Assembly (NCBI GenBank): GCA_004369045.1
Contig: ML213535.1
Coordinates: 172,131-236,130, forward strand
Length of the DNA: 64,000 nucleotides
DNA from: Heliocybe sulcata
Lineage: Eukaryota > Basidiomycota > Agaricomycetes > Gloeophyllales > Gloeophyllaceae
Reading direction: 5' to 3'
Positions 20,038 to 47,942 of this stretch are shown piece by piece. Position 1 is the first letter of the stretch; the number at the start of each line of letters is the position of its first letter. The notes under the pieces were generated by a model. That model ran no database searches, was not told where the DNA came from, and was given only the letters and a program-made list of their open reading frames with translations. The position numbers and the translations under genes were made by a program.

Positions 20038-22381
20038 ATGTTGTCCTTATTGCAAGTGGCTGCCTACGCAGCTGCTGCTGGAATAGTATGAACAATTCCT
20101 ATATGTTCGCGTACCGCTTCTCATACCTTTTCTATTCTTCTCATGTGATTGTCAAGCGCACTGAACCAAGCGTTCCAACAGCCCTCCTTGTTTTGTTGGT
20201 GCTAGTAGCGGCATCGACAGTTGGCTTGTGGCATGTCGGAACTGCGGTCCTTACTGCTGCTGTCAAAACCAGCGTCGTCGGTTTAGTCACGTATCTGGCT
20301 TCCCTATCGGCGTCCGTCATTCTATACCGACTGTCGGGATTCCACCCCCTTGCACAATATCCGGGTCCGATACTGGCAAAAACTTCTAAATGGTGGATGT
20401 CGGTTTGGATTGCCAAGGGTAACCGTCACCTAAAGCTACAAGAGTGCGGTCACCATCGACATTCTGTGTACTGTACTTACGGGCACATCGTCACAGACTC
20501 CACAGAACTTACGGGCCATGGGTTCGGATTGGTACGTCTTGGGCATGGGTCGTTTCTCCAACTCTTCAATCTGTGTTGCAGGTCCGAATGAGCTCTCTGT
20601 CAATATTCCGGAGGCTATCAAGCCAATTTACGGGCAAATGTTCCGGGCTCCGTTCTACCAAGGTACATCAGCAAGGCGCAATACCGATATGTGTGCTAAG
20701 ATTTACAACATGCAGGCGCACCTCAAGACGCGGCAGCTTTGGTAACAACTCTCGATCGCAATGAACATGCCCGAAGATTAGTCGTAAGCTCATCAATGAC
20801 ACAGCATCGTATTTCTCCATCTCATCATCATATAGGCTTGGAGCAAAGCGTTCAGCAGTGAGATGGTACAGACATATCGAGAGTCTGCTATGGTTGGTGC
20901 ACCGCTACCATATGAACTGCTGTGTAAACCGAACTTTGAATAGGCACGCACAAACCAACTGATTGACGTCCTGAAGCGAGAAGGAAAGGGAGGAAAGCGT
21001 GTCTCGCTATCCCATTGGATTGCTTTGTGGGCTATGTAAGATATCAAGGGCGGTTTATTCGAACATCATGCTCACTTTTCTCAGGGATGTGATGGGCGAC
21101 ATGGCATTCTCGGGTGGTTTCGAGACTCTGGCTGCTGGTCAAGATAGCGAGGGTTGGATGGAAGTCGTATGTTTACTCCCCGATCTCGAGTCCAATCTCA
21201 GGATTCTAACCATACGCCCAGCTATCTATGGGGGTACTATTCGTGGGTAGTGCGTAATCCAGAAGTTTGGAAAAGGTGCTGTGAATGACATGCATTCCGA
21301 CAGTCCTCGGCCAAGTTCCGTGGATGAGGGACGTCATTGCCTTGCTTCCTCAACCCGGCCCAATCGTAACATTTCAGCAGGTCGGAGTCTTTTTCAATGA
21401 TCCCCACACTAGATTGACACCCTCTTCACAGTTTGCGGGGCAAAAAGTTAAAGAGACGAAGGCGACGATGACGGGCATGAGCAAGGACATTCTCGGGATT
21501 ATAGTGAGTCTTGCGACTTGGAGCACTTGTCAGCTTTGGACTCATCTTATGCCTCCAGCAAGATGAAAGTTCCGGTGGTCCTCCACTCAGCTCCAAGGAG
21601 GCTGCTGCGGACGCATCCTTCATGGTTGTTGCGGGTTCCGACACCGTGGCGCAAGCGCTCATGGCACTGTCGCGATACATAGTTGGGAACAAAGACATCC
21701 AAACTCGCCTTCGTGAAGAACTTAGCCAGCTTTCGGACGATGGCTTTGGTGATGTTGATGCAACGACACTGGCACACCTGCCGTACCTCGACGCATGTGT
21801 GCAGGAAGCCCTACGCATGATACCGCCCGTGCCAGCTGGGCCGCCTAGGTACACTGGCGACCGAGGGTATGAAGTCCTTGGTAAATACATTCCGCCGCAC
21901 ACTACCGTGGCCACTCCGATTTACACTCTTCACCGAGACCGTGAGCAGTAACTTGCTTCTTCTTTGGGAAGTAGCTGACTCGACATTGTCTAGCCGCTAA
22001 TTTCGCGCGTCCAAATGAGTTCATCCCTGAGAGATGGCTTCCTGACTCGACAGTCCTGCCTCACAACAAGGAGGCGTTCATGCCGTTCAGTTACGGGATT
22101 GGGATATGTATCGGAAAGCAGGTCGCCTTGCAAAATATGAAGTGAGCGCAACGAGCACTAAGAGCCTTCAACCGTACTGAATATATTCAAGGCTTTTTAC
22201 CGCTGCTTTATTACACGCCTTCAAGCTTGATTTTGCAGATGCATTCGACCTTGCCAAATACGATGCCTCGTACAAGGTTAGTGCATCTGCTAGTACATCA
22301 GGCCAGATATTGATGCGGGTGTAGGAACATAACCTCTGGCTACATGCTTCTCTCGACGTTACACTGGTGCCATCGAACTAA
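20038..22381 (+). CDS. Cytochrome P450, tandem copy A
   Basis: Membrane-anchored heme monooxygenase with an unknown substrate, possibly CYP5037-like. The start ATG at 20038 gives a short hydrophobic exon (MLSLLQVAAYAAAAGI). An intron leads to RTEPSVPTALLVLLVLVAA, a second hydrophobic stretch, then YRLSGFHPLAQYPGP. Conserved pieces follow: LHRTYGPWVRIGPNELS, AWSKAFSSEMVQTY, DVMGDMAFSGGFETLAAG and VLGQVPWM. The I-helix is VVAGSDTVAQAL (the AGxDT oxygen-binding motif), the K-helix is EALRMIP (ExxR), PERW follows, and the heme loop FSYGIGICIGK keeps the ligating Cys. The C terminus is HNLWLHASLDVTLVPSN with the stop at 22379-22381. There are about 13 exons. All catalytic motifs are intact. It is paralogous to copy B, with matching intron placement. 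The acceptor of the first intron (around 20,160) is uncertain. Confidence 0.87.
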
Positions 22382-24014: not shown

Positions 24015-26472
24015 ATGATTACCAGCCTCTATGCATGCGCATCTCTCGCAGGTTTAGTAAGTAGCTTCCCATTATCCTGACTTGTTCAATCTAATACTAG
24101 TCGCAAGGTCTCCCACTTCTACTTTCGCGCCAAAGAGCCGAACCCCATCGTCTTCTTGGCAGGTTTAATGGCCTCAACTGGCTCGATCTGTCTCTATTTA
24201 TCAGTGCTAAATGCTGAAACCGTGACTTTACACAAATCTATCCTCGCATCTCTCCTATGCACTTTCATTTACTTGACGACATTGTGTCTTTCTATCACCA
24301 CCTATCGCCTGTCTCCCTGGCACCCTCTAGCGGAATTTCCTGGCCCTAGAGTCGCTTCTCTTACTAAATGGTGGATGGTCCATCAAATTCTGATGAACGG
24401 AGGTAGACACAAGAAACTGCAAGAGTGCGCAAGCATGTTGATGCATTTATGTCATGGCACTGACGTTTCCCGCAGGCTCCATGCTCGACACGGCCCCTGG
24501 GTCCGCGTAGGTACGGTTATATACCCTTCTGCGCTACGTACGCCACTCAGCCATGTTCCAGGCCCCAATGAACTATCAATTAATCTGCCTTCGGCTGTAC
24601 GTCCTATATACACTAAGCTCGATAGAGCATCCTTCTACGCTGGTATGTGCCTCTATGCGTAAATGTACAACATGGCTAAACCACGAGCTTAGCTGTACCA
24701 GCTACGGCGGAGACATTGATCACAGTCCGTGATCGCCTTGTCCATGCTCACAGACGCCAGGTTCGTAGTTGTTTACGGGCTTTTCTCTAAACACTAATGA
24801 TTGACCTTGCACATCTCGAAAGGCCTGGACGAAATCTGTCACCTCGGAAGCCATGCAGTCATACGTTCCATTCCTACAGGTGACAGACCGTCATAGCTAA
24901 TCCGGGATTGGGGCAATTTGCTGATGAAAGCTGGACAGAGACGAATAGAGCAGCTCGGCAGGATCCTTGACAGGGAATGCACACAAAGTCCTGTCAAGAT
25001 AGACCACTGGCTTAATCTATTCTTGATGTATGTCTTTACGCTCTCATTCAGGTAAACAGACATCCTGACACCTAAACTTGGTTAGGGACCTCATGGGCGA
25101 CATGGGATTCTCAGGAGGATTCGAAACTATGGCAGCTGGCAAAGACACTGAAGGATGGGTGGACATCGTGAGTTTCAATTCACCCTTTTGATTGTATTCT
25201 CATGTGATTTTCTGCCAGTTGTCAAAAGGCGTGGTCTTTGTAAGCTGTGAGTCTAGTTCCTGGAACGTTCGCCGCCATTTTACTGATAAAACGCCGCCAC
25301 AGCAATCGGCCAAGTCCCATGGGTCAGGGCCATAGTCGAATGCCTGCCACAGCGAGGACCCATCGAGTCCTTCCAGAAAGTGCGCTTCGCTATACATCTC
25401 GCATTGAATCAGCGCTGATGGCCATGTCAGTTCACCAATAATAAAGTAGAAGAAATCAAAGCGCAACGCAATAGTCCTAAGAGAGACATACTCGGAACCC
25501 TGGTACGTAACATGCCCTGGCACCACCGTCCAAGCCGCTGAATGGATCTGACATGCAGCTCGACGAATCGACTGCTGTCTACCGCCTTAGTGAAGCTGAA
25601 GCAGCGGCGGACGCTGCCCTTATTGTCGTTGCAGCTACAGATACAACTGCGCAGACTCTGATCACACTCATCCGGTATATCATGTGTGATAAAGGCGTGA
25701 TGCGGAGGCTTCAAGAGGAAATAGCGAGTACGTTCACGTCTTGCAGAGGTGGCCTTGACGATATGGACATTTCGCTTGTGTTGCGCCTTCCCCTGCTGGA
25801 TGCATGTATCCAAGAAGCATTGCGGCTCATGCCACCTGGTCCATTTGGTAAGCTAGTATCGGTGTCAGCGGGCGCTAGGAACAATCTAACGAAGCATTCG
25901 ATAATAGGGCCACCTCGTACCTCGGGTCCTGGTGGAACGAAGATCAATAACGTCTACATCCCGCCGAATACGACGGTCCATGTTCCAATATACACTATGC
26001 AGCGGGATCCGGCCAATTTTGGCCAGGATGCCGATATGTACGTGCCAGACAGATGGCTCGTAAGCTCTCATCCAGCTGGATACGATCATGCATCCGGGAA
26101 AGGCTTGGATGTGGAGGAGTCTAGACTGAACAGAGATGCTTTCATGCCCTTCAGCGCCGGGTACGGCAGCTGTGTGGGGAAAAGGCTGGCGCTTCAGAAC
26201 ATGAAGTGAGTACTTGCGGTTATCCCAGCATTGTCCGTTCATGACATGCATATCAGGATCTTTGTGGCATGGCTCCTGCATACCTACGATATTGTCCCAA
26301 CAGTGGACTTCAACCCGCAGGTCTTTGATTTATCGTACAAGGTGGGCCTACCATTCACGTTAACCCTGGTGTCATAGTACTCAGAGTTCCCTAGGAGCAT
26401 GGACTATGGGCGCATGACCCTCTCGAAGTTTCTCTTCATCGCCGGGATGTGGATCTCAAAGGAGCTCCTTAG
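24015..26472 (+). CDS. Cytochrome P450, tandem copy B
   Basis: Paralogue of copy A, same subfamily. The ATG at 24015 gives MITSLYACASLAGL, an intron, then VSHFYFRAKEPNPIVFLAGL and two more hydrophobic stretches before YRLSPWHPLAEFPGP. It continues with LHARHGPWVRVGPNELSINL, DLMGDMGFSGGFETMAAGKD and IGQVPWVRAI. The I-helix is VVAATDTTAQTL, with Ala where copy A has the usual Gly of AGxDT. The K-helix is EALRLMPPG, and the heme loop FSAGYGSCVGKRLA retains Cys. The ending is DLSYK joined to EHGLWAHDPLEVSLHRRD and the stop at 26470-26472. It carries an insertion relative to copy A after LMPPGPFG, which may be a retained intron rather than coding sequence. Same orientation as copy A and 1.6 kb downstream, which indicates a tandem duplication. 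Confidence 0.87.
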
Positions 26473-30199: not shown

Positions 30200-30649
30200 T
30201 GCGAAGCGGGCAGCTCGGCATAACCCGGCTTCTGGATCCTTGGCCAATATGCGCAGAATACTGTCAGTGCAGACACGAAGACGCTCAATTCACAAGCAAA
30301 GTTGGAAGTCTTTCTGCGTGCGCTCAGAACCGCATACCCTGTACACCATCTCAGTTGGTGGATTAAGAGGAGCAGCTGGTTCTGGACAGGATGGTTTCGA
30401 GCCCAGGCAATATTTGTGACCAGGTAAGGACGTACGTATTCGTTATACCGCGGTCAATAGATAACCGAGGACATACTTAGCTCTCCTGATCCATCATATC
30501 CTACCGCCGGATAACGTCCGCTTGAAAGTTCTTGTGGGCGCCTGCTTGTCTATAAATTGAAGCAATATTTCGCGGGACCCGAAGGTAAAGAACTTGCTTT
30601 TTCCTGACGCTCTCGACTAAGACGGACGAGGCCTCTTCGACCATGTAAG
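30200..30649 (+). repeat. Duplicated upstream block of ERG26 (inverted copy at 47,943-48,330)
   Basis: This segment aligns by eye with the reverse complement of 47,943-48,330. Shared islands include GCCAATATGCGCAG, the CTCAGTTGGTGGA-type stretch, CCGAGGACATA and TTCTTGTGGGCGCCTGCTTG. It is the former promoter and upstream flank of the pseudogene that follows. The TATTTAA-like element of the intact copy (near 48,111) reads ACTTAG here. Confidence 0.75.
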
Positions 30650-31454
30650 ATGTCCAGCAACAATTCGTTGCTCGTCATTGGGGGAAGTGGCTTTCTCGGC
30701 CGCGCCATCGTCGACATGCTCTTGGAGAGAGGGAACCAACGCGTCGCCGTCTTTGACTTGAAGACCGACGGGAACTTTGACCCCCGGATCCAAGTCTACC
30801 AAGGCAACATACTGAACGAAGACCACCTACTCAGTGCTTTTAACAATGTATGTATTCCTTTGCGATCTCAAGCAAGCTGCCTAACAATCTCCAAGTCTGG
30901 TACGACCCGCATCATCCACACGGCGTCCCCGATGCCAGGAGCCCCAGCGCCCTCAATATTCTGGAAAGTGAATATGCATCGATGGCACTCGCACCGTGAT
31001 ATCTGCGGCTGGAAAAGCAGGGGTTGACCATGCAACTCGGCGACAACACGAACCTTTTCGACTTCTTGTATGTCGAGAACGCGGCGTATGCAGTCATCCT
31101 CGCTGCAGAAAAGCTCTCTGGTCCAGTGGAGGAAAACCCGGTTACGGGTCAGGTGTCTATTATCACGAACGACGATCCCCCGCCGTTCTGGGACCTTGCG
31201 CGGGCTGTCTGAAAGGGCCTTTAACACGTACCGCCAAAACAACCATCGTTCCACGGCCCGTCGCAATGTTCGTCGGCCTCATCTCAGAGTTCCGGGGGTG
31301 GCTGACCGGCAAGCCAGCGCTCTGAATCATCACGAGGTTCCGAGTCACATTCGCGTGTGCGAGTAGGTTTGATATCAGAAAGGCGAAGGTGCTTCTCGGT
31401 TACAAGCCATTGTACACAATGGACGAAGGCGTTCAAAGATTGGTAGAGGTAAGT
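30650..31454 (+). pseudogene. ERG26-like sterol dehydrogenase pseudogene
   Basis: Near-identical but broken copy of the intact minus-strand gene at 46,818-47,942. The start exon is preserved (LLVIGGSGFLGRAIVDMLLE, the Rossmann NAD-binding motif), as is the first intron. After GCAGGGGTTGA at about 31,027 the sequence jumps to CCATGCAACTCGG. In coordinates of the intact copy this removes about 326 bp (47,246-47,571), including the second intron and the YxxxK catalytic site. The rest also carries frameshifts and stops: near 31,210 a TGA ends the frame where the intact gene reads VWKGLGHV. Homology continues to the old C terminus (YKPLYTMDEGVQ) and slightly past it. No functional enzyme is expected. 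Confidence 0.88.
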
Positions 31455-31729
31455 TAGCGCAGCGCACCGAGGCTGCCGCGCATGCGTTGGCAGACAGCGG
31501 TGCCAGTTACTAATGATAAAGTAGTGAAAGTCGCCTGTGGTGCAAGCGACACACGCCAGGACTGGGACGAACGAAATCGCATCGCACAAATACAGCGCTG
31601 TGTGCAAGGTACAATTGAGAGATGGTACGATATGATGTCACTCGTCATGGCGAACACTTGACTATAATCCCAGCTCGAGCACCCAAAGGAAACAACGCTG
31701 TCCATGCCCGCAACACCACCTCGCAACTC

Positions 31730-34162
31730 CTAGCACAACGGACAAACAGTCATGGTGTGCCTGATGTCCCGACTGGTGAACCCGAGGTTAAGCGTAAACG
31801 TGCCCTCAGGAATCCTCCACTGCTGCGCCTCCACATCCCAGTAGCTGATATCTCTCCTCGTCAACCCAAATGTCACCGTCTCAGCCTCTCCTGGGCTCAG
31901 CGTTAACTTGTCGAAACCGCGCAGTTGCTTTGGGGGCGTACGCGGCGGCACGGTGGACGGCATGCCCACGTAGAGTTGTGGAACAGTAGCGCCCGAGACG
32001 CTGCCCGTGTTCTGTACCTGCGTCGTGACGTTCAGCACGGTCTCGAACAGCGCGGGGTTCCCGCCAGGCACAACTGCCTGCGCGGGAGGCAGCGCAGAGA
32101 GGCTACCGCCTGCCACGTCCTCGATCGTCATATCTCCGAGCGAGAAGTTCGTGTAGGAAAGACCGTATCCAAACTCGTACAGCACGGACTTGTTCGCGTA
32201 GTCGAAGTAGCGATAGTCGACGAGGAGAGACTCTGTAAAGTTCAGCTGCCAATCATTCAGTCCCGCGTTTGTGAGGTTCAAGATCGGGGTGTTGTAGTCG
32301 CTCTCGTTGAGCGCGATGGTGTAGGGGAGACGACCAGACGGATTGACATCGCCGTACAAGACGTCCACGATGGAATTCCCGGATTCCTGGCCTGGGTAAT
32401 GCGCAGCGAAAATGGCGGTGACGTTCGGGTGTGAGGCAAACGGCAGAACGTTTACGCCAGCAGAGTGCGTAACGACGACAGTGTTGTTGCAGCTCGCCGC
32501 GATGGCCTCCACGAGAGTGTTCCCGTCCCAGTCGACGTCCAATGAGCTCCGGTCGTAGTTCTCGGTTGCCCAGGTCTTCAGGAACACCAAGCAGACGTCG
32601 AGCTCCTGCGCCGGCGGGTACAACGACGACAAGTCAGTCGACGCCATCGTGTTGTTCAGTATGTACTGGACGAGAGAGCCGTCTATCTTTGCTCTGGCCT
32701 TGATCGCGTCAAGAGGGGGTACGATGTAGGTCAGTCTGCCTGTGCCAGAGCCGCCACCCATAGGCAGCGTCCCGTACGCATAATTCCCGCTGAAGTCGGT
32801 GCGGAAGAGATATAACGAGTTCGTGAGGTCGCCGGCGTCATTGCCGAAGACGCCAATGTACTTCGGGTTCTTCAGAGGCAGCGCACCATTGGTGTTCTTT
32901 AACAAGACTATCGCAGAAGCGCCGAGCTCGCGGATCAGCGTCGCGTGATTATCTCGCACGTCACGGTTGCTAGTCCCGTTCAGGTCGAACTGGTAAACCC
33001 ATTCGCTCTGCGGGAAAAGGACATTCATGTGCACAGACGAAGGATCAACGGTTGGGTAGCCCTGGTCCTGATTCAAGTAGAAGTAGGGCGTCATGACACG
33101 CCGGACCATGTCGTCCACGCGTTCTTCGGCTAGCGAGCCATTCTGGACAGCGATGGTGATGTTCTGACCGAAGTAAGAGGGCGTAGGGGATAAGAACCCG
33201 ATGCTGCCGGGCATGTCCATGTCCAACCCTGCCTCGATTGCAGAGACGCCAGCGTACGTCGCGCCCCAATCGGACAAGACATATCCCTGAAAGCCAAACT
33301 CCGTCTTAAGCATGCCATTGAGCGTGTAGGAATTTTGGCACGCATAAGACTGGTTCAAGCGGTTGTAGCTGCACATGACGCTCGAGACGCCAGCGCGAAC
33401 GGCATCGGCGAAAGGCCACGAGTAGATTTCGTGGATGGTTCTGTCATCGATGTTCGAGGATACAGCCTCGATGGTTTGACCATCGGAAGAGATAGTGGGA
33501 TTACGTTGCGTTTCTTGTTCATATCCGATGAAATGTTTCGCGCATGCCTGGATTCCAACAGATTGAATGCCCATGATCGAGTATGCCATCGCAACGCCGT
33601 TGAGGTAGGGGTCCGGAGAAAAGCCTTCCCAGTTCCGCCCACCGTAAGGGCTCCTTCCCAACGGCTCAGAGACTGGACCTAGCAGGACATGGGCACCTTT
33701 CGCCTTTAACTCCTCCGCAGTCTCAGCACCCCTCTGATAGATCAGGTCTCGATCCCAAGACGCCGCGGCAGTGACACCCGCAGGGAATACACTGACGAAG
33801 TCGGCTTGGCGCGCTCCAAGCGGGCCATCCTGCAAGCACAGACCGTTGAAGCCGAGGCGAGGAATAGGTGCAATGTTCCCCTCACAAGGGCCGGGTGTGC
33901 CAGTCACCATCTGCGCCTTCTCATCTAGTGTTAACTGGGATAGGAAGGCGTCTGCTTTCGCGAGCGCGGACTGCCATCCTCCAAGACCAGTCATATTCGC
34001 TAGGGTTGTACGTGGTCAGCAAGACGCTTGATATTCACCATATCGTTACTTACGAGATGGATACACGGGAGGGCTATACCCGTACGAGCCAGATTCCCAT
34101 TGGGCGGAGGCCCCACAGGCCAGCAAAGTAAGTAATGCCGCTCGATATGACACGAGAACCAT
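31730..34162 (-). CDS. Secreted GH3 beta-glucosidase
   Basis: Glycoside hydrolase family 3 enzyme that releases glucose from the non-reducing end of beta-glucosides. CDS complement(31730..33999, 34054..34162), 792 residues. The first exon encodes a signal peptide (MVLVSYRAALLTLLACGASA) and ends in YPS; a 54-nt intron follows, and exon 2 begins PNMTGLGGWQSALAKADAF. Hallmarks: GFNGLCLQDGPLG, KHFIGYEQETQRN, SSVMCSYNRLN, and GYVLSDWGATY with the catalytic nucleophile Asp in SDW. The C-terminal half has GH3-C (AIVLLKNTNGALPL, NPSGRLPYTIALNESD, EFGYGLSYTNFSL) and a fibronectin-III-like end (LRGFDKLTLSPGEAETVTF). Many NxT/S sites suggest glycosylation. Length and motifs are normal. It is convergent with the ERG26 pseudogene. 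Confidence 0.94.
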
Positions 34163-35854: not shown

Positions 35855-36442
35855 ACTTGGGGGTAGCCGGCCACCGCGTCGCGTGGCATTGATACGAGTC
35901 CTGAGTAGATCTGTGGTAGCGTTGTGATTGAGTAACACTATATATAATACTATACATATGATACTACAGTGATTTCCGCAAATAAAACCCTCCAGTTGAA
36001 TATACTTCACGCATCATGCCATAGAACCTGGCTCAACTGACCTGCGCCACCGACTACAAGTCCCATTCAATGCGTATTCCCACGGTAACAGAGGTGAATT
36101 CGACAGGTTTGAAGGGTGAGGGATGCTAAAGGGATGATAAAATCTTGAAAATATTCCAGTACGCAGGTCCCATTCTCATATGCTTATATTCAAAATTTGA
36201 GGTGCAAAAGAGTGAGCATCATGGAGACCGACAAGAATTAGTGATCGGGACCACTACAAAACGTGTTTCATACTCCGCTTGTAGTCTCAATAGGGGCGGG
36301 GTTTCATTTGAGTGTATTGATAACTACAAAGACGTTCATACTCCGATCACTCGGCATCTACTTTCCCACGGCGGGAACGTTCGGCAGCGCGCCCAAAAAA
36401 TGCATGCAAAGACTCATCCTTCGTAAACTCAGGACTCGTAAC
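35855..36442 (+). repeat. Left arm of a 588-bp inverted repeat
   Basis: Reverse-complement partner of 36,897-37,483, with a spacer of about 454 bp. The arm contains a 544-bp TA-flanked element plus about 38 bp of shared outer flank (GGGTAGCCGGCCACCGC). Inner flanks diverge right after GTAAC. Confidence 0.9.
35895..36438 (+). mobile_element. MITE-like element, copy 1 (544 bp, TA-flanked)
   Basis: Non-coding element bounded by the terminal inverted repeat CGAGTCCTGAGT and flanked by TA on both sides, as expected for a Tc1/mariner-type target duplication. It carries no transposase-like ORF. Copy 2 has exactly the same length and the opposite orientation. Confidence 0.75.
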
Positions 36443-36590: not shown

Positions 36591-36732
36591 ACAAGAAATC
36601 CGTCTGGTCGTCTCCCCAACACCATCGCACACAATGAGAGCGAATACAGCGTTCCTATTTTGAACTTCACAACCATTTTAGTGCAGTATTATCATTATCG
36701 TGATCAGCTGGTGATCTATGTCGGCGATATCT
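36591..36732 (+). pseudogene. GH3 beta-glucosidase gene fragment
   Basis: The plus-strand frame reads NPSGRLPNTIAHNESEYSVP followed by ILNFT, matching NPSGRLPYTIALNESDYNTP of the intact GH3 gene 3-4 kb away on the minus strand. It continues with an alignable but shortened piece (LVQYYHYRDQLVIYVG against LVDYRYFDYANKSVLYEFG). Flanking GH3 sequence is not recognisable. The fragment lies wholly within the spacer between the two inverted elements. It is too short to make an enzyme. Confidence 0.8.
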
Positions 36733-36896: not shown

Positions 36897-37483
36897 GTTA
36901 CGAGTCCTGAGTTTACGAAGGATGAGTCTTTGCATGCATTTTTTGGGCGCGCTGCCGAACGTTCCCACCGTGGGAAAGTAGATGCCGAGTAATCGGAGTA
37001 TGAACGTCTTTGTAGTTATCAATACACTCAAATGAAACCCCGCCCCTATTGAGACTACAAGTGGAGTACGAAACGCGTTTTGTAGTGGTCTTGATCACTA
37101 ATTCTTGTCGGTCTCCATGATGCTCATTCCTTTGCACCTCAAATTTTGAATATAAGCATATGAGAATAGGACCTGCATAGCGGAATATTTTCAAGATTTT
37201 ATCACCCCTTTAGCATCCCTCACCCTTCAAACCTGTCGAATTCACCTCTGTTACCGTGGGAATACGCATTGAATGGGACTTGTAGTCGGTGGCGCAGGTC
37301 AGTTGAGCCCGATTCTATGGCACGATGCATGAAGTATATTCAACTGGAGGGTTTTATTTACCGGAATCACTGTAGTATTATATGTATAGTATTATATATA
37401 GTGTTACTTAATCACAACACTACCACAGTTCTACTCAGGACTCGTAAAAATGCCACGTGAGCGGTGGCCGGCTACCCACAAGT
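36897..37483 (-). repeat. Right arm of the inverted repeat
   Basis: Partner of 35,855-36,442. The arms are nearly the same length (587 and 588 bp) and differ by scattered substitutions, for example near 37,050-37,100 and 37,380-37,470. Confidence 0.9.
36901..37444 (-). mobile_element. MITE-like element, copy 2 (544 bp, TA-flanked)
   Basis: Inverted copy of the element at 35,895-36,438, with the same 12-bp terminal repeats and TA flanks and identical length. No transposase is encoded, so it would depend on an enzyme supplied elsewhere. Confidence 0.75.
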
Positions 37484-38821: not shown

Positions 38822-40952
38822 ATGATCAGCCTTCACGCTGTGGTGCTTTATGGATTATTGCTGCTCTCTCTAGCCTGGTGGCTCAGCCTCCGCTCAGCAC
38901 GGACACGTCGGTCTTTGGATGCCATCCCTGCCATAGGATCCACCAATCCGGTTCTCTCTTGGATTGAAGCGTTCCGCTTCTTGACTCGGTCGGATGTATA
39001 TGTGCAAGAAGGATACAACAAGGTACGACCTGATGGTTAAAGCGCTGTGATCATGACTGTCTATCTAAATGCGCGTTGACTCTTGGAATATCTAGTACAA
39101 GGGCGGTCTATTCAGGGTTCCCAGATTCGATGGATGGAGGGTCTATGTAACCACACCAGAGCTCATCGATGAGATACGCAAGGCGCCGGACGATGTGCTC
39201 TCATTTGCAGAGGCAACGAATAACGTGAAGTCTTCATCTTTCTGCACATACTGCTACTGGACCTGTCGTGCAGGAACTCCAAATCACCTACACTCTGGGC
39301 AAGAATGTTCACGAGAACGGGTACCACATTCCGATTGTCCGCTCTCAGTTGACGAAGAACTTGGCTGTCCTGTTTCCAGAGGTCAGGGATGAGATTCTTG
39401 CTGCGTTCAATGATGTTATACCGAAGCAAGCTGAGACGGGTAGGTGCTTCATCAATTTCGGCTATGCATGGCCATAACCGCTCAACCACCGTTGCTCAGA
39501 CTGGGTGGAAGTACCAGCCATGGCGTCGATCATGAAGATCATCTGCAGGACCTCCAACCGCATCTTCGTCGGATTGCCCAAATGTACGCATGGCATTTCG
39601 CTTACTCGAAGTTCCTATAAGCTTACGGCCCGCTGTCATAGGTAGAGATCCGGATTATATCGAGCTGAATACGCGTTTCACGCTGGACGTCGTTCTTGGG
39701 TCGGCAGTAATCAACTTGTTCCCTACGTTCCTAAAGCCGTCAGTCATACCGGCACAGTATCCTGTCTATCGTCTGTACTGACTTTGATATCAAGACTTGC
39801 AGGCCGATTGTTGACGAACCTGAACAAGAGCATTCAAAGGGGTATTAACCATCTGAAACCCATCATTGAAGAGCGCCGCAAGCAACGACACGAGTATGGT
39901 ATTGACTACGAAGGCAAGCCTGTGAGTAGTTGCAATAGACGCGGCCCTGCGTGAAGCTGAACTACCTCCAGAACGACATGCTATCCTGGCTTATGGACGA
40001 AGCCGACGCAACAGAATCGACCATTGAGAATCTCACACGCCGTATACTCACAGTAAACTTTGCCGCCATTCACACATCATCGACCGTGAGTCGTGCAGAG
40101 TTCGGCTACTATGCACTATCTAAAGCGCACATCTCTGCATCAGAGCTTTACAGAGGCCCTATATAACCTCGCTCTCCACACCGAGTACGTCGCACCACTG
40201 CGTGAAGAGGTGGACAACATCGTGGCCGAATACGGCTGGACCAAGGTTGCCATGCAGAAGATGAGGAAGCTCGACAGCTTCATGAAGGAATCTCAAAGGC
40301 TCGAAGGACTGGGTAACAGTCAGTCTCTCCGCCTCGCATCATCCATGTCCAGATACAGCTAAATCTGCCCGCCTCAGGCACGATGTCCCGCCTGGCGCTC
40401 CAAGGCAAGTCCTTCCATCCCACCACCAGCTTACGCTAACAAAAACTCAGACTTTGTCTTCTCCGACGGCACCTTCATCCCAAAGGGCACCGTGCTGCAA
40501 GTCGCCGCGGGGCCCCTGCATCACGACGACGCCGTCTACCCGCGCGCAAACGACTTCGACGGCTTCCGGTTCGCCAACATAAGAGAAGAGGAGGGAGAGG
40601 GCACGAGGCACCAGATGGTCGCCACTACGACAGAATATGTTTCCTTCGGGCACGGTCGGTCTGCTTTCGTACAAAGTGCAGGTAGAATTGTGTCTTATTC
40701 ATACTTGTGCTACTATAGGTCGGCATGCTTGGTGAGTACTCGAGTTGATTCATGCATCGTGAGTACTAAACGAGACCTTGCAGCCCTGGACGTTTCTTCG
40801 CTGCAAACGAATTAAAGGCAATGATGGCGCATGTCGTCTCAACCTACGACATCAAATTCGCCGACGGCGTTCAGCCAGCCAATACCTACTTTGCCACAGC
40901 GTGCGTACCTGACAACAAAGCGAAGGTACTCTTCAGGAAGAGGAGCAGCTGA
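38822..40952 (+). CDS. Cytochrome P450, CYP512-like
   Basis: Membrane-bound monooxygenase. The N-terminal anchor is MISLHAVVLYGLLLLSLAWW, followed by LDAIPAIGSTNPVLSW, EGYNK joined to YKGGLFRVPRF, and ELIDEIRKAPDDVLSF. Then come ELQITYTLGKNVHENGYH, MKIICRTSNRIFVGLP, NDMLSWLMDEADATESTIEN and the I-helix VNFAAIHTSS. The K-helix is FMKESQR (ExxR). The heme loop is rebuilt across two introns as FGHGRHACPGRFFAANELK, with the ligating Cys. The stop is at 40950-40952. The GINHLKPIIEERRKQRHEYG stretch and the whole pattern match CYP512, a family that in polypores is associated with lanostane triterpenoid oxidation (from memory, not searched). One intron (about 40,407-40,451) appears to use a GC donor. 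It converges with ERG7, 245 bp away, so a pathway link is plausible. Confidence 0.9.
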
Positions 40953-41197
40953 TGAGTTTTCGGGCTCCTGATCTGGCTAGCGACCAGACAGCGCTCGCAG
41001 AGAACAGGTTGCTTTTCTTGATTACCCTCTGCTTTGTCGTTCTTCTATATTGCAGTGTACTTCTATAATCGCGGACAATGACAGGACTCTGTAGCGGACC
41101 CATTCGCCATATAATAGAAAATGGTCCACGGCAGAGCGACACAAATAGCTAACAAACGAATCTACGAGCGTCAAGCACTGTCCGACACAGCGTCCGC

Positions 41198-43889
41198 TCA
41201 CCCCTCCTTCGGCGCCCTCAACTTCGGAACATACTCATGCGCCTTCCCAAGCATCCACACCGTAAATATATGCTTAAAATTCGGATACGTGATCATGCAA
41301 TTCTTGTTAAACACGCCCTCGATCGCCTCCTGTGGCCACGACCCGTCCTACCCAGCCCAACATCAGCACCATCTCCCAAATTCCAATAAGAGGATACACG
41401 CACCCGCTGCTGACGCGACATGACCAGCTTCACCGCCCTCTCGATGGGCACAGGATCAGGGTACTGCGCATACATGAGCGCCATCGCCGCCCACGCCGTC
41501 TGCACCACCTGCGTCCTCTTATGCTCCACCCACCTCTCCCACTCGCACGACTGCCAAATCATCCCTCAGCACCCAAACCCATAGGAAACTAGACGCAAAA
41601 TGCACTTACCAAATAACTCTCCCCCCACCCCCCGTCCGCCCGCTGCTTCGAAATCAAAAACGTACACGCCCGCTTCACAGCCTCGCTATTCGCATACGTC
41701 TCGCCCACCAGCGACAGGCTCTCCAGCGCGAACAGCGTCGCGTACGTGAAACAGATCCCCCACGAGCCATACCACCCGCCCTCCGGCCGCTGCGCAGCGT
41801 GCAGATACTTTATAGCGCCTTTTATGCACCGCCTGGTTATCCAAGTATCATGAGCAAGGTCACGGGAGAGGAGTGAGGGAGGGCGCCCACTTGATATCGC
41901 TCTTCCGGTAGTCGGGGTAGTACTTCTGGAAGATGCTCAACGCTGTGATAACCGACGTGGTGCATTCCGGGTATGTGTACTCCGTCATGATATTACCTTG
42001 ATACGACTCAACAAGGTGAAAGTGGGTCAATCAAGATGACTCACCAAATACCTCCGCCGGGTTGATCAGCTCGAGCATATGCGTCGCACGGATCCCCTCA
42101 TAGCTCGCAAACCCGCCGTCATCACATTGCATCCCAAGCATCAAATCAACCGCGTCGTATATCCGCTGGTCAGGCACAGGTTTCGGCGAATCCCTGCACG
42201 GCACAGTGAGCCTCCTCCCACTCTCGAGACGAGAAAACTCTCACTTCCAGCGATTTTGAAGATATAGCACAGCCTTCAGCGCCTCGCCCGTGCAATCCGA
42301 CAACGTATACCCCTGCTCCTTCGTACTAAACCCCCAAGCGCCCTTCGTCCTCTGCCGATACGCCTCCTTATAGTACTTCGGATCCTCCGTCATCTGGCTC
42401 TCATCGATCCACTTCAACGCCCTCAACACGCTCTCCCTATTCTCCTCCACATCCACCAAACCCGTCTCGACGAGCGCCTGCGCCATAAACACCGTATCCC
42501 ACAGCTGGCTCCCGTTCGTCCCGCAGACGAGCAGGCCCTCCGCGGACACCCACATGACGTCCGCGCGCTTCAGCGCGTGCTGCTTCATCGCCTCGCTGTC
42601 CGCACCGTCCGCGTGGAACCGGCAAACCATCTGCATCATCTTGTTCACCGGCGCCAGGTCCTGGTAGGCCGTGTTCTCGTCCTCCATGCAGATCAGCTCG
42701 TACGCCCGCTTGAGCGCGAGGTTGTGCAGCGGCGGGAGCGGACAGCTCTCGAGGGTGTGGCTCATGAGCGCGTTGAGGGCATCGAGGAGAAGGGTGTGCG
42801 GGGTGTAGAGGTCGACTTTTGCGATGTTGTTGCGCTGTGCTGGCCAGTCGATGGTATGGTACGGCTCGACATAGATTTCCTTGGAATTTGCATGAGCAAG
42901 CGACCATACAAGGAGATCAACAACAGACCTCTCGCAGAGCCTGAACGATGGGCGTCTCTGGACCTTGGAACTTGACGCGATACAGATAGCCCATTGGCAG
43001 ATAGACCGCGCGAGTGTGTATCCACCACCGGTGAGGATGAATAGGGAGCCAGTCTGGAAGTAGCCTGAAGAAGACTTAGCATATATGCAAACTTGCGATG
43101 AGAGAGAAAGGCACACCAAAGCTCTGGTGGAACAGGGTTATTGCCATCCCATGAATATACGTTAAGAACGGTCAACCAAAACTTGCCCCATGAAGGGGCG
43201 GCAGCAGCACCGCCTGCACACGCTTAGCGAAGAGACGGGCAGGAGACAATGAGCATACCATGCCTATGCAGAGTGGCCCGTGCCTTGACCATCGCCGGGT
43301 GCTCCCTGTCCACACCTAGGAGGCGCAACGTGCAATAATTCAAAGCTGTCCCAAAGACAGTAGACGGACTCTCAACATGACTGCATATGCCTTTAGATCG
43401 ATGTTCCAATATATCCAGGCCAACTCACATGCCCCATCCGCCGTCCTCTGGATGTGCTCGATTCAGCAGATACCGGATCATCTCCAGGCGCTCCTCCTCC
43501 TCGAACCAGAGGCCAGTAACGTACGAGGCAATGACGAGCCCAGGTAGGAGGAACATGGGTCCCCCGTATTCGCCTGCCCAGTGCCCGTCGGGCGCCTGCA
43601 ACCGCTTGAAGAACTGGTACCCGTTCGCGGCTGCCGACCGCGCATCCTTGGCTGGAGGGAGCGTAGGCGCATTCTTCCAGCGCATTAGCATCTTATCACA
43701 TCCGAGTATGTAATATCCACGTACGACAGGCAACCCAAGCCAATAACGGTCAATGTCAGTCTGTGGCCACCGCTCGCACTCGTCGTCGGTGCGGAGGTAC
43801 TTCCAGGTATGCCTGCCTCCGTCGCCGTTGACAAGCCTCCATCGTGTATAGTCTGTGAATGGCTTGCTGGGGTCTGTGGGGATAGACAT
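41198..43889 (-). CDS. ERG7: Oxidosqualene cyclase (lanosterol synthase)
   Basis: Cyclises 2,3-oxidosqualene to lanosterol, the first sterol and triterpenoid skeleton, at ER or lipid-droplet membranes. The ATG at 43887-43889 gives [20 protein letters not shown]. Features in order: QW motif [115 protein letters not shown]; the catalytic motif as [11 protein letters not shown] (usual form DCTAE); [60 protein letters not shown]; and the C terminus [13 protein letters not shown] with the stop at 41198-41200. There are about ten exons and the protein is of normal length, about 730 residues. Substitution of the Ala in DCTAE leaves the Asp intact. Divergent from CDC73 with a 1.0-kb spacer. Confidence 0.95.
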
Positions 43890-44912
43890 GGCGTCGAGAG
43901 GGGACTGCCAGGCCACGTCGTACAGAACGTATTTAAGTCGGCCAACATTTCCTGGATGAGGCCACTAGGTCGATTACGTACCACGGATTACCCTGCGAGT
44001 GCCGTGGGAAAATACTTTGAATCCTTATTTCACGTGATATCACGCGTCGCGATTTATGAGCGCAACTGCATTCTCTAGAACGACATCTTTTCCAGTGAGA
44101 TCGACGTACTCCCAATGACTGCCTCGGTCTGGCCAGGATGCTGGGAATGTGGGGGTTTGAGGGAAAGGAGGCGCGCTGTTCCTTGAAAACAGGGGATCTT
44201 ATATACCGACAACACGTCAATGCCACACAAAGTAGCCTGCGTACCGAACAGGGAGGTTCAGGAGACAGTGACACGCCTCCGGGATAGCCTCTGATGCGCA
44301 CGCTCGACCGAAGGTACTTATAAGTATGCGCGCGGGCGAATGTCCCAGAACAAAGCTGCGTACTTTACTGGTGCGTTATAATACGACCTCTAGATCTGAC
44401 ACTGGTTTGTAGCGTATCCTCGTTGTAATCAGGATCTCACTCTCATACGATATGGGCAATCCACAGACTGCGACTTACTCCACCAGAAATGATGCCAGGA
44501 CGAAACAGCACTTGTAGACAGAGAGTCAGCGAAAATTTAGAAGAATATCTCAGAAAATTATGTGGAAGCGTACGGAACTGAGGAAAGCAGAACGGAACAC
44601 GACACTACAGTACGAATCACGAAAAGTAACAAAATCGTGTTCCACACTAGAAGCGGATGTTGAATCTGACGTTCAATATACTGATAGACACTACGCGCAG
44701 TTCCAACTCCGATTACTCGGCATCGACATGCGCTTAAAACGGCATAGAAACTCGCCTTCGCGCTCAGGACTCGTAAACACGTTCTCCTCGACCCTCCCTT
44801 GTCGCTCTGGCCACCGTTATAACTGTAACTGAAGAGTTTCTCTCAAGATTCTGTACCTAAGGTCCTCGTTGAAGTGCTGCGATTACGGCCACTTGCTCAC
44901 TGAATACGCGAA
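43890..44912. other. Shared divergent promoter of ERG7 and CDC73
   Basis: This 1.0-kb stretch separates two divergently transcribed genes. A TATATAAG sequence on the minus strand at 44,198-44,205 is a candidate ERG7 core element, about 310 bp upstream of the ATG. A degraded MITE copy lies at 44,636-44,775. No gene is recognised. Confidence 0.5.
44636..44775 (+). mobile_element. Truncated, degraded copy of the MITE-like element
   Basis: The right end matches the elements at 36-37 kb: CTCAGGACTCG followed by TA, and AACTCCGATTACTCGGCATC at 44,705-44,724 against ACTCCGATCACTCGGCATC. The left end and most of the interior are missing or unalignable. Confidence 0.6.
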
Positions 44913-46531
44913 ATGTCACTTCCTGACACAATGGTCGTCCTGCGACGCGCCGTACAATCTAACACGCCAGTATCCTACACAAAAAACGGAGAGGCAACGG
45001 CAAACCTATCCGACGCTACACACATTGAGATACCCCCTCACTCCTACCCCAAAGCCACGCCGACCCGCTTCCTGAAACCTGGGTCCCCCGCTTCGAGCGC
45101 GCCAGCCTCGAACCCCGACGATTTCTTCTCACTCGAAGCTGTTTACCTCGCATGGCGATTGAAAGATGCGCCTGGAGCAGAGTACATGAAGGCCGTGCGC
45201 GAGAGCGGGCTTATGGTCGGGTTTGTGAGCGTCACAGAGAGGAAAGCGCTTGTGGAATGGCTGGAAGGCAAGGCGCACGAATACGACAGGATTGTACCGC
45301 TCGTAGGTGAGTGCCGTTGTCTTCTCGGACTGTTAACCTTGTGATGGTTACTTCGTAGGCGCCGGAGACTCGACGACCCCTCCGGGCTCACCCTCCCACC
45401 CTGGCACCCGCGTCCCTGGCGACACCACTTCATCGCCATCAAAACGGAGATACATCGCAGACGCACAAGACGTCGACGTAGTCAAGAAGATCAAATCCAA
45501 CGAAGTCGAGTTGCGCGACCGAAACACCGTCTTGCGGGGTATCAAGCCCAATGTCTGTTCTCATCATGAGCTAAGACTGCCACCTACTCATTTATCTTCA
45601 GAACTTCTCCAGCGTACGAGATGCTTTTGCTGAAAAACTCAAGAAAGCGAAAGAGTCGAGTAAGCCGGGCGCTGCTGTACCGGCCGCCACACCCGCTCTC
45701 GGTCAGCCCCAGGTCCGTTTCTATCTGGCCCGCGCTGACTTCCTTGATACTCTCAGACCCCAAACTGCAAGCTCGGAAAGCTCGTGAGTCTTCCGCTTTG
45801 TTAACGCGAACTTTAGATAGACTTGTTTCTCGCAGGGAATATGTATCCTATCATAATGATCTCCTCGTCGCCCACCGCTCTCATCACCATGCACAACGTC
45901 AAACGTTTCCTCCAAGAAGCAATGTACGCAACCTCTCACTTGCCTGCAGCCTCATCTCACCTCACTACAGCTTCGAGCCCTCCTCCGAAGCCCGCGCGCG
46001 CGCTACCGCAGAGGGAAACACGCGCCCAGAAGACCTGCTCGCCATCTACCGCACCCTCACACACATCTCGCCTTCCGGTAAGCAAACAACGTCGCAGGCC
46101 CGCTATTTCGTTGTCGACTCCGTCGACGCGCTGTCGAAATTTGGCGCGGATGCGTGGGACCGAGTGGTATGTGTGATGACCACGGGCCAGGCCTGGCAGT
46201 TCCGGCCGTACAAATGGAATGATCCCAGACAATTGTTCCATAATGGTGAGCACGAGCGGATTTGGTTGAGACTGTGAGATGCTGATTTCCTGCAGTCAAG
46301 GGCATTCACTTCTCATGGACCAACGACCCGCCCAATACGAAAATCAAGGACTGGAATGTGACAGAGTTGAAGGTACGCTGACTGGAATGCCGTCCGATCC
46401 TCGCTGAGAGGCCATGTCGGTAGATCGACCCGCAGCGACGGCATGTGGACAAATCGGTCGTGGCGCATTTTTGGAAAATCCTAGATACGTGGACGTTGTC
46501 CAACAAGCCTTGGCTGATGAAAACTCCTTAA
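44913..46531 (+). CDS. CDC73: CDC73, Paf1-complex subunit (parafibromin homologue)
   Basis: Nuclear subunit of the Paf1 complex that travels with RNA polymerase II and supports elongation and histone modification. The start at 44913 gives MSLPDTMVVLRRAVQSNTPV, then YTKNGEATANLSDATHIEIP, DDFFSLEAVYLAWRLKDA and GFVSVTERKALVEWLEGK. The middle has KRRYIADAQDVDVVKKIKSN and NFSSVRDAFAEKLKKAK. The C-terminal Ras-like CDC73 domain has NMYPIIMISSSPTALITMHN, RARATAEGNTRPEDLLAIYR, QARYFVVDSVDALSKFGADA, DRVVCVMTTGQAWQF, GIHFSWTNDPPNTKIKDWN and VAHFWKILDTW, ending at the stop at 46529-46531. There are about eight exons; the border near 45,710-45,765 is unclear. It is unrelated to sterol metabolism although it sits between ERG7 and ERG26. 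Confidence 0.94.
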
Positions 46532-46817
46532 GCAGCGTTGCCAGAGTACTGCAATTTTTGGAGCGGCTGATCGTGAATGTCACAAGTAGCTGCACCTACC
46601 TTGACCTCATCCTTCAGGCAGTATCAACACGGCGAAGAAAAATAGGTCCGCGTATCGAAAATCAGCAGCCTTTCTATTCCAACGGAAATGTCATGTATTG
46701 TAGCATGGAGGAAGGCAAGTGACGATGCCCGATCAGTAGCCACGTTTGCTGCCTTCGTTTTTCCACCACTGCACCAGGCAACTATGTTAGCATGCGCGGC
46801 AGCCTCGACGCGCTGAG

Positions 46818-47942
46818 CTAACTTGCCTCTACTGATTTTTGAACGCCTTCGTCCATTGTGTACAATGGCTTGTAACCGAGAAGCGTCTTCGCCTTGCTGA
46901 TATTAAACCACCTCGTCGCGCACGCGAATGTGACTCGGAACCTCGTGATGAGCGCTGGCTTGCCGGTCAGCCATCCCCAGAACTCTGAGATGAGGCCGAT
47001 GAACATGGCGACGGGCCGTGGAATGATGGTTGTTTTTGGCGGTACGTGTCCAAGGCCCTTCCAGACAGCCCGCGCAAGGTTCCAGAACGGCCAGGGATCG
47101 TCGTTTGTGATAATAAACACCTGGCCCGCAACCGGGTTTTCCTCCACTGGACCAGAGAGCTTTTCTGCAGCGAGGATGAATGCGTACGCCGCGTTCTCGA
47201 CGTACAAGAAGTCGAAAAGGTTCGTGTTGTCGCCGAGTTGCATGGTCGTCTTCCCGTCATCGATGAGTCTCGCGTAGCTGGCGATAGACTGATAGTCCCC
47301 CGGTCTGAACATTAGCGGAGGAAGACGGGAAGCGTCAGAGGCATGACGAGTCTCCGAGGGTAGTGGGACGTACCCGAATATGCCGGAAGGACGCAGCACC
47401 GCGGTCTTGAGGCCGCCGTGGCCATTAGCATCTACTATTATCGTTTCAGCAATCGCCTTGGTCTCGTTGTAGGTATCCATATGCTTTTTCGGGAATGGCG
47501 TTGTCTCATCGACGCCTGCGATGTCAGCACCGTTGAAAATTGTGCTTGCACTCGACGTGTATATCAGTTTCTCGACCCCTGCTTTTACAGCCGCAGATAT
47601 CACGGCGCGAGTGCCATCTACATTCACTTTCCAGAACGAGGGCGCTGGTGCTCCTGGCATCGGGGACGCCGTGTGGATGATGCAGGTCGTACCAGACTTG
47701 CAGGTTGTTAGGCAGCTTGCTTAAGATCGCAGAGGGATACATACATCGTTCAGAGCGCTGAGTAGCTCGTCTTCGTTCAGTATGTTGCCTTGGTAGACTT
47801 GGACCCGCGAGTCGAAGTTCCCGTCGGTCTTCAAGTCGAAGACGGCGACTCGTTGGTTCCCTCGCTCCAAGAGCATGTCGACTATAGCGCGTCCGAGGAA
47901 GCCACTGCCCCCAATGACGAGAAACGAATCATTGCTAGACAT
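46818..47942 (-). CDS. ERG26: ERG26-like C-3 sterol dehydrogenase (C-4 decarboxylase)
   Basis: NAD(P)-dependent enzyme of the 3-beta-HSD short-chain dehydrogenase family. With ERG25 and ERG27 it removes the C-4 methyl groups of sterols after lanosterol, at the ER. CDS complement(46818..47304, 47374..47696, 47745..47942), 335 residues, phases consistent. Evidence: SFLVIGGSGFLGRAIVDML (Rossmann motif), IIHTASPMPG, NVDGTRAVISAAVKAGVEKL, YTSSAS, the catalytic YxxxK as DTYNETKAIAE, VLRPSGIFGPGDYQSIASYA across the second intron, GDNTNLFDFLYVENAAYAFI, GQVFIITNDDPWPFWNLARA and SKAKTLLGYKPLYTMDEG. The 69-nt second intron has no stop and a length divisible by three, so it can be misread as coding. The gene has a broken inverted twin at 30,650. 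Another sterol- or triterpenoid-specific 3-beta-HSD is possible. Confidence 0.88.

Follow-up and report, generated by a model that had tools for sequence, protein, structure and literature searches.

In the genome of Heliocybe sulcata, an oxidosqualene cyclase gene lies next to a cytochrome P450 gene and close to a gene resembling the sterol dehydrogenase ERG26. This arrangement raises the question of whether the three genes form a selected triterpenoid locus, are loosely grouped around a common metabolite, or are neighbours by chance. The stretch of DNA analysed (the window) comprises the final 64 kb of a 236130-bp contig (C33) in a genome of 31.63 Mb and 51 contigs; positions are given within the window unless a contig is named. 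On the best reading, the locus combines a lanosterol synthase present in one copy with two neighbouring genes that are candidates for lanostane modification; it is not a demonstrated cluster.

Gene models were predicted by hand from the sequence alone, using three-frame reading and manual splicing, and their coordinates are provided in Table 1. The P450, the cyclase and the ERG26-like dehydrogenase all spliced to intact predicted genes with no internal stops, and 22 of their 23 introns are GT-AG (the remaining one, in the P450, is GC-AG). Together with the family matches, these models bear out the three enzymes that an earlier note on this DNA had proposed at these positions. That note had also described a complete cyclase 245 bp from a convergent P450, and a gap of exactly this length was recovered (40953-41197) beside an intact cyclase frame. 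The ERG26-like gene, placed by the same note about 3 kb beyond the cyclase with CDC73 alone in between, was found across a gap of 2928 bp, inside which CDC73, recognised by its CDC73_C match, is the sole gene.

Table 1 Features of the locus, in window coordinates
Feature	Position	Strand	Description
CYP512-like cytochrome P450	38822..40952	+	12 exons, 499 aa, intact; Pfam p450 163 bits
Oxidosqualene cyclase, lanosterol synthase type (ERG7)	41198..43889	-	11 exons, 724 aa, intact, single copy
CDC73 (Paf1 complex subunit)	about 44913..46531	+	CDC73_C 70.6 bits; start and stop read from sequence
ERG26-like sterol-4-alpha-carboxylate 3-dehydrogenase	46818..47942	-	3 exons, 335 aa, intact; 3Beta_HSD 224 bits
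Broken ERG26-like copy, inverted	30491..31485	+	326-bp deletion, other indels and stops; from inverted repeats and alignment
ERG7/CDC73 divergent upstream region	43890..44912		about 1 kb; no SREBP-type motif in scan

For the cyclase, Pfam SQHop_cyclase_N and SQHop_cyclase_C both scored above cut-off, as did TIGR01787, and the narrower bacterial model TIGR03463 scored under its cut-off (639.8 vs 851). The closest solved structure is human lanosterol synthase (1w6k; residues 8-717, 730 bits, best of 15), to which the similarity is full-length. The DCT-E aspartate and stretches with His, Tyr and Cys (a 19-residue stretch and PECT) align with their 1w6k counterparts, although the human motif is SDCTAE and that of the window cyclase SDCTGE. 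We take the aligned residues to be catalytic. The protein is supported as an oxidosqualene cyclase of the lanosterol synthase type, with lanosterol as its predicted product. In a search of the genome for a second ERG7, a check that had been suggested earlier, no other cyclase gene was found: the only match to the Pfam C-terminal domain (1 of 1) and all six matches to the whole protein (6 of 6) are exons of this gene. Given that it is the single cyclase found in the genome, it should serve ordinary sterol synthesis rather than act as a dedicated secondary-metabolite enzyme. This double duty counts against reading the locus as a small lanostane triterpenoid cluster anchored on the housekeeping ERG7, in which the P450 would oxidise the skeleton, the ERG26 homologue would make a C-3 ketone, possibly with C-4 demethylation, and the linkage would have been selected.

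The P450 has a haem loop, FGHGRHACPG, with the haem-binding Cys, and a K-helix ExxR motif (ESQR). On a straight reading its frame breaks before the haem loop, and a pseudogene was considered; this was rejected because a GC-AG intron (40405-40450) and a 13-nt exon in the haem-binding loop (40719-40731), both needed by the model, restore the intact frame. The best PDB matches are CYP51 at about 55 bits, which is too distant for naming the P450 family, and "CYP512" is kept here as the label of the earlier note rather than as the result of a comparison with named CYP512 sequences. Using the P450 as a query, exon matches were obtained on C1, C12, C18, C23 and C27, corresponding to seven similar genes besides the window gene (three in tandem on C1 and one on each of the other four contigs; segment identities 24 to 61%), a count without the weak matches to single exons on C24 and C9. 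Because 92 of 262 candidates were scored in the genome-wide search with Pfam P450, and the window P450 itself was not listed, P450 counts are minimum values. With seven similar genes elsewhere, the window P450 is, judged by these matches, a member of a dispersed family, neither unique to the locus nor a recent tandem copy.

The predicted ERG26-like protein has a conserved Rossmann GGSGFLG, a YxxxK motif (YNETK) and RPxGIFGP. Its closest solved structure is the human sterol-4-alpha-carboxylate 3-dehydrogenase NSDHL (6jkg; 147.6 bits, best of 58 PDB sequences), with which it has the 3Beta_HSD family, the Rossmann glycines and YxxxK in common, and from which its activity is predicted. Using the protein as a query, the genome gave ten matches, two of them in the window gene, three in the broken copy of Table 1, four in a C7 homologue and a single weak one on C14. 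A second ERG26, which the earlier note had proposed looking for, is therefore present: the C7 homologue (L048 3500-5250) is intact, splices to a 454-aa protein, shares the positions of its two introns with the window gene, and is 51% identical to the window protein over 331 aligned residues. Its score against 6jkg is 166.2 bits vs 147.6 for the window protein. Extra ERG26 genes are not new in mushrooms, given that Taiwanofungus camphoratus W1 was annotated with four Erg26 orthologues in the available part of PMC8865532.

With a second intact homologue on C7, one of the pair would be free to specialise, and the existence of this unlinked gene favours selection of the window copy for a lanostane cluster. 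A possible but doubtful alternative is that the window gene serves as the housekeeping ERG26, that the substrate of the P450 is an unrelated compound, and that the position of the three genes was not selected. It is favoured by a relative-rate comparison against human NSDHL, in which the window gene was not the faster of the two (21 window-only vs 19 C7-only changes, 212 columns, p 0.87), and by a long internal insertion in the C7 protein that has no counterpart in the window protein. On this flat rate result, the idea of the window gene as a faster-evolving derived paralogue was rejected. A point against chance neighbours is that two His common to human NSDHL and the C7 protein are replaced by Tyr and Phe in the window protein.

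The broken copy, which was missing from the earlier note, aligns in inverted orientation to the ERG26-like gene and lies about 16 kb from the intact one. Differences between the two copies by codon position number 21 of 249, 9 of 250 and 29 of 248 at first, second and third positions, and 38 of 221 in noncoding columns. So few changes at second positions suggest that the intact copy at least is constrained and that, for a while following the duplication, both copies may have been. Though not a formal test, these codon-position counts suggest purifying selection on the intact gene. The local duplication weighs against a merely loose grouping of the three genes and favours a selected cluster.

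As the orientations run convergent between P450 and cyclase, divergent between cyclase and CDC73, and convergent between CDC73 and the ERG26-like gene, no promoter is common to any two of the three enzyme genes. Three upstream stretches were scanned for four published SREBP motifs (three in the available part of PMC9810662, with its fourth alternative), and nothing above background was found. The human-type motif TCACNCCAC occurs once, 250 bp upstream of the P450, and twice in the window, against an expectation of about two; of the 47 occurrences of the G. lingzhi motif GRVGRVGRVGR in the window, one is upstream of the ERG26-like gene; and the remaining two motifs have zero occurrences in the three upstream stretches. 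The shared regulation put forward by the earlier note thus gains nothing from the layout or from the motif scan. The same separate promoters and background-level motifs, together with the interruption by CDC73, argue against a selected cluster, which we regard as unlikely.

Two other sterol-type families were searched, squalene epoxidase (SE; matches on C17 and C12) and FA_hydroxylase (matches on C8, C9, C21 and C13), and neither has a match on C33, which fits the remark in the note that sterol genes are usually scattered. The probability of the exact trio arising by chance was put at about 1.5e-6, and that of any P450 together with any sterol gene falling within the same distances of any one among 25 sterol genes at about 0.5%; both are rough, post hoc estimates that assume 90 P450 genes, 25 sterol genes and uniform placement. 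Since P450 genes cluster, the true chance is higher than estimated. The low value for the exact trio makes chance neighbours unlikely under these assumptions, and, together with the adjacency itself, favours some selection for linkage over a loose grouping. The family-wise value of about 0.5% for the looser trio is easier to reconcile with chance, given how many genomes and windows are scanned. The linkage is no more than suggestive.

The neighbourhood is mixed in gene content. Other Pfam matches among the window ORFs searched are to GH3, polysaccharide lyase 14, glycosyltransferase group 1, the N terminus of catechol dioxygenase, and DUF1720/EH/WH2; this subset of ORFs contained no recognisable acyltransferase, transporter or transcription factor, a further point against a selected cluster. 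Two further P450 exon groups, absent from the earlier note, lie on the forward strand at 21508-21945 and 25511-26203; both match Pfam p450, resemble each other and, being unmatched by the window P450 query, are of another kind. Another P450 lies at C33:162162-162779. These groups make the region P450-rich, which counts against a loose grouping around a common metabolite.

A 564-bp repeat with inverted, TIR-like termini is present in two copies of opposite orientation (35879-36442 and 36897-37460), 1.4-2.9 kb upstream of the P450, and recurs at 21 further places in the genome over 500 bp or more at 90-98% identity. Between the two copies, a 76-bp piece of the GH3 gene (32269-32344) recurs inverted at 36597-36672, 84% alike. 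A subtelomeric location was considered, as the window ends at the end of the contig, and was rejected, as no tandem TTAGGG was found.

On balance, the evidence tips slightly towards three genes that are linked through a common metabolite pool and that each have their own promoter, forming at most a loose grouping rather than a co-regulated cluster. By its family membership, ERG7 would cyclise oxidosqualene to lanosterol, both for ergosterol and for any lanostane triterpenoids. The CYP512-like P450 may then hydroxylate or otherwise oxidise the lanostane or sterol skeleton. The ERG26-like protein, as a putative NAD-dependent 3-beta-hydroxy dehydrogenase of the C-4 decarboxylating type, would oxidise the C-3 hydroxyl and, where a C-4 carboxyl is present, may decarboxylate as well. 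The sequence itself establishes the intact frames, the families, the active-site motifs, the copy numbers and the layout; we infer beyond it that the P450 and the ERG26-like enzyme probably act on lanosterol-derived molecules and may be linked in function through them. Against this loose grouping around a metabolite pool stands the possibility that the substrates of some CYP512 enzymes are unrelated compounds.

The arrangement bears on the C-3 oxidation of lanostane acids. According to the available part of PMC12234687, an attempt to isolate the C-3 oxidase of Ganoderma lucidum failed and heterologous enzymes were used instead, and a C-3 dehydrogenase, AcSDR6, has been reported from Taiwanofungus camphoratus (cited in PMC12355660, available in part). 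A sterol dehydrogenase homologue linked to a lanosterol synthase would be a concrete candidate of a different kind. With the native oxidase of Ganoderma lanostane acids not found in that study, the value of the locus lies in offering a second ERG26 homologue beside ERG7 as a testable candidate. In a stronger version, which is quite improbable on present evidence, the ERG26-like enzyme would be specialised for C-3 oxidation of lanostane triterpenoids; duplication would have recruited it from the sterol pathway, and it would have stayed next to ERG7 and a skeleton-oxidising P450, giving a mushroom-forming fungus a minimal triterpenoid locus anchored by an essential housekeeping gene. If the linkage is due to chance, the locus yields ordinary annotation only. 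In the titles and abstract openings of mostly non-subscription literature, no description of an ERG7-P450-ERG26 linkage was found. The genes are of known kinds, in a suggestive, unproven arrangement.

Among known systems, biosynthetic genes in basidiomycete mushrooms are usually scattered (PMC9748899, available in part). The same source describes Ganoderma CYP512W2, CYP512A2 and CYP512U6 as modifying ganoderic acids, and the likeness of the window P450 to them is the proposal of the earlier note. There, the substrate of CYP512W2 and CYP512A2 is the lanostane acid HLDOA, and lanosterol is not used; a P450 of that kind is therefore not expected directly after the cyclase. A parallel is the helvolic acid (hel) cluster of Aspergillus fumigatus, in which, as in the window, a cyclase, a P450 and a 3-keto-forming dehydrogenase lie near each other, a likeness drawn from activities and not from the sequence of HelC (PMC5696383, available in part). 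This source has the cyclase HelA, the P450 HelB1 and the dehydrogenase HelC acting in this order, HelC giving the 3-ketone and, with HelB1, C-4 demethylation. Such a trio can thus be a working unit in an ascomycete, and its matching activities lend weight to a selected cluster in the window. The hel cluster differs in comprising nine genes around the protostadienol cyclase HelA, whereas the window holds a single-copy cyclase of the lanosterol type with CDC73 in between.
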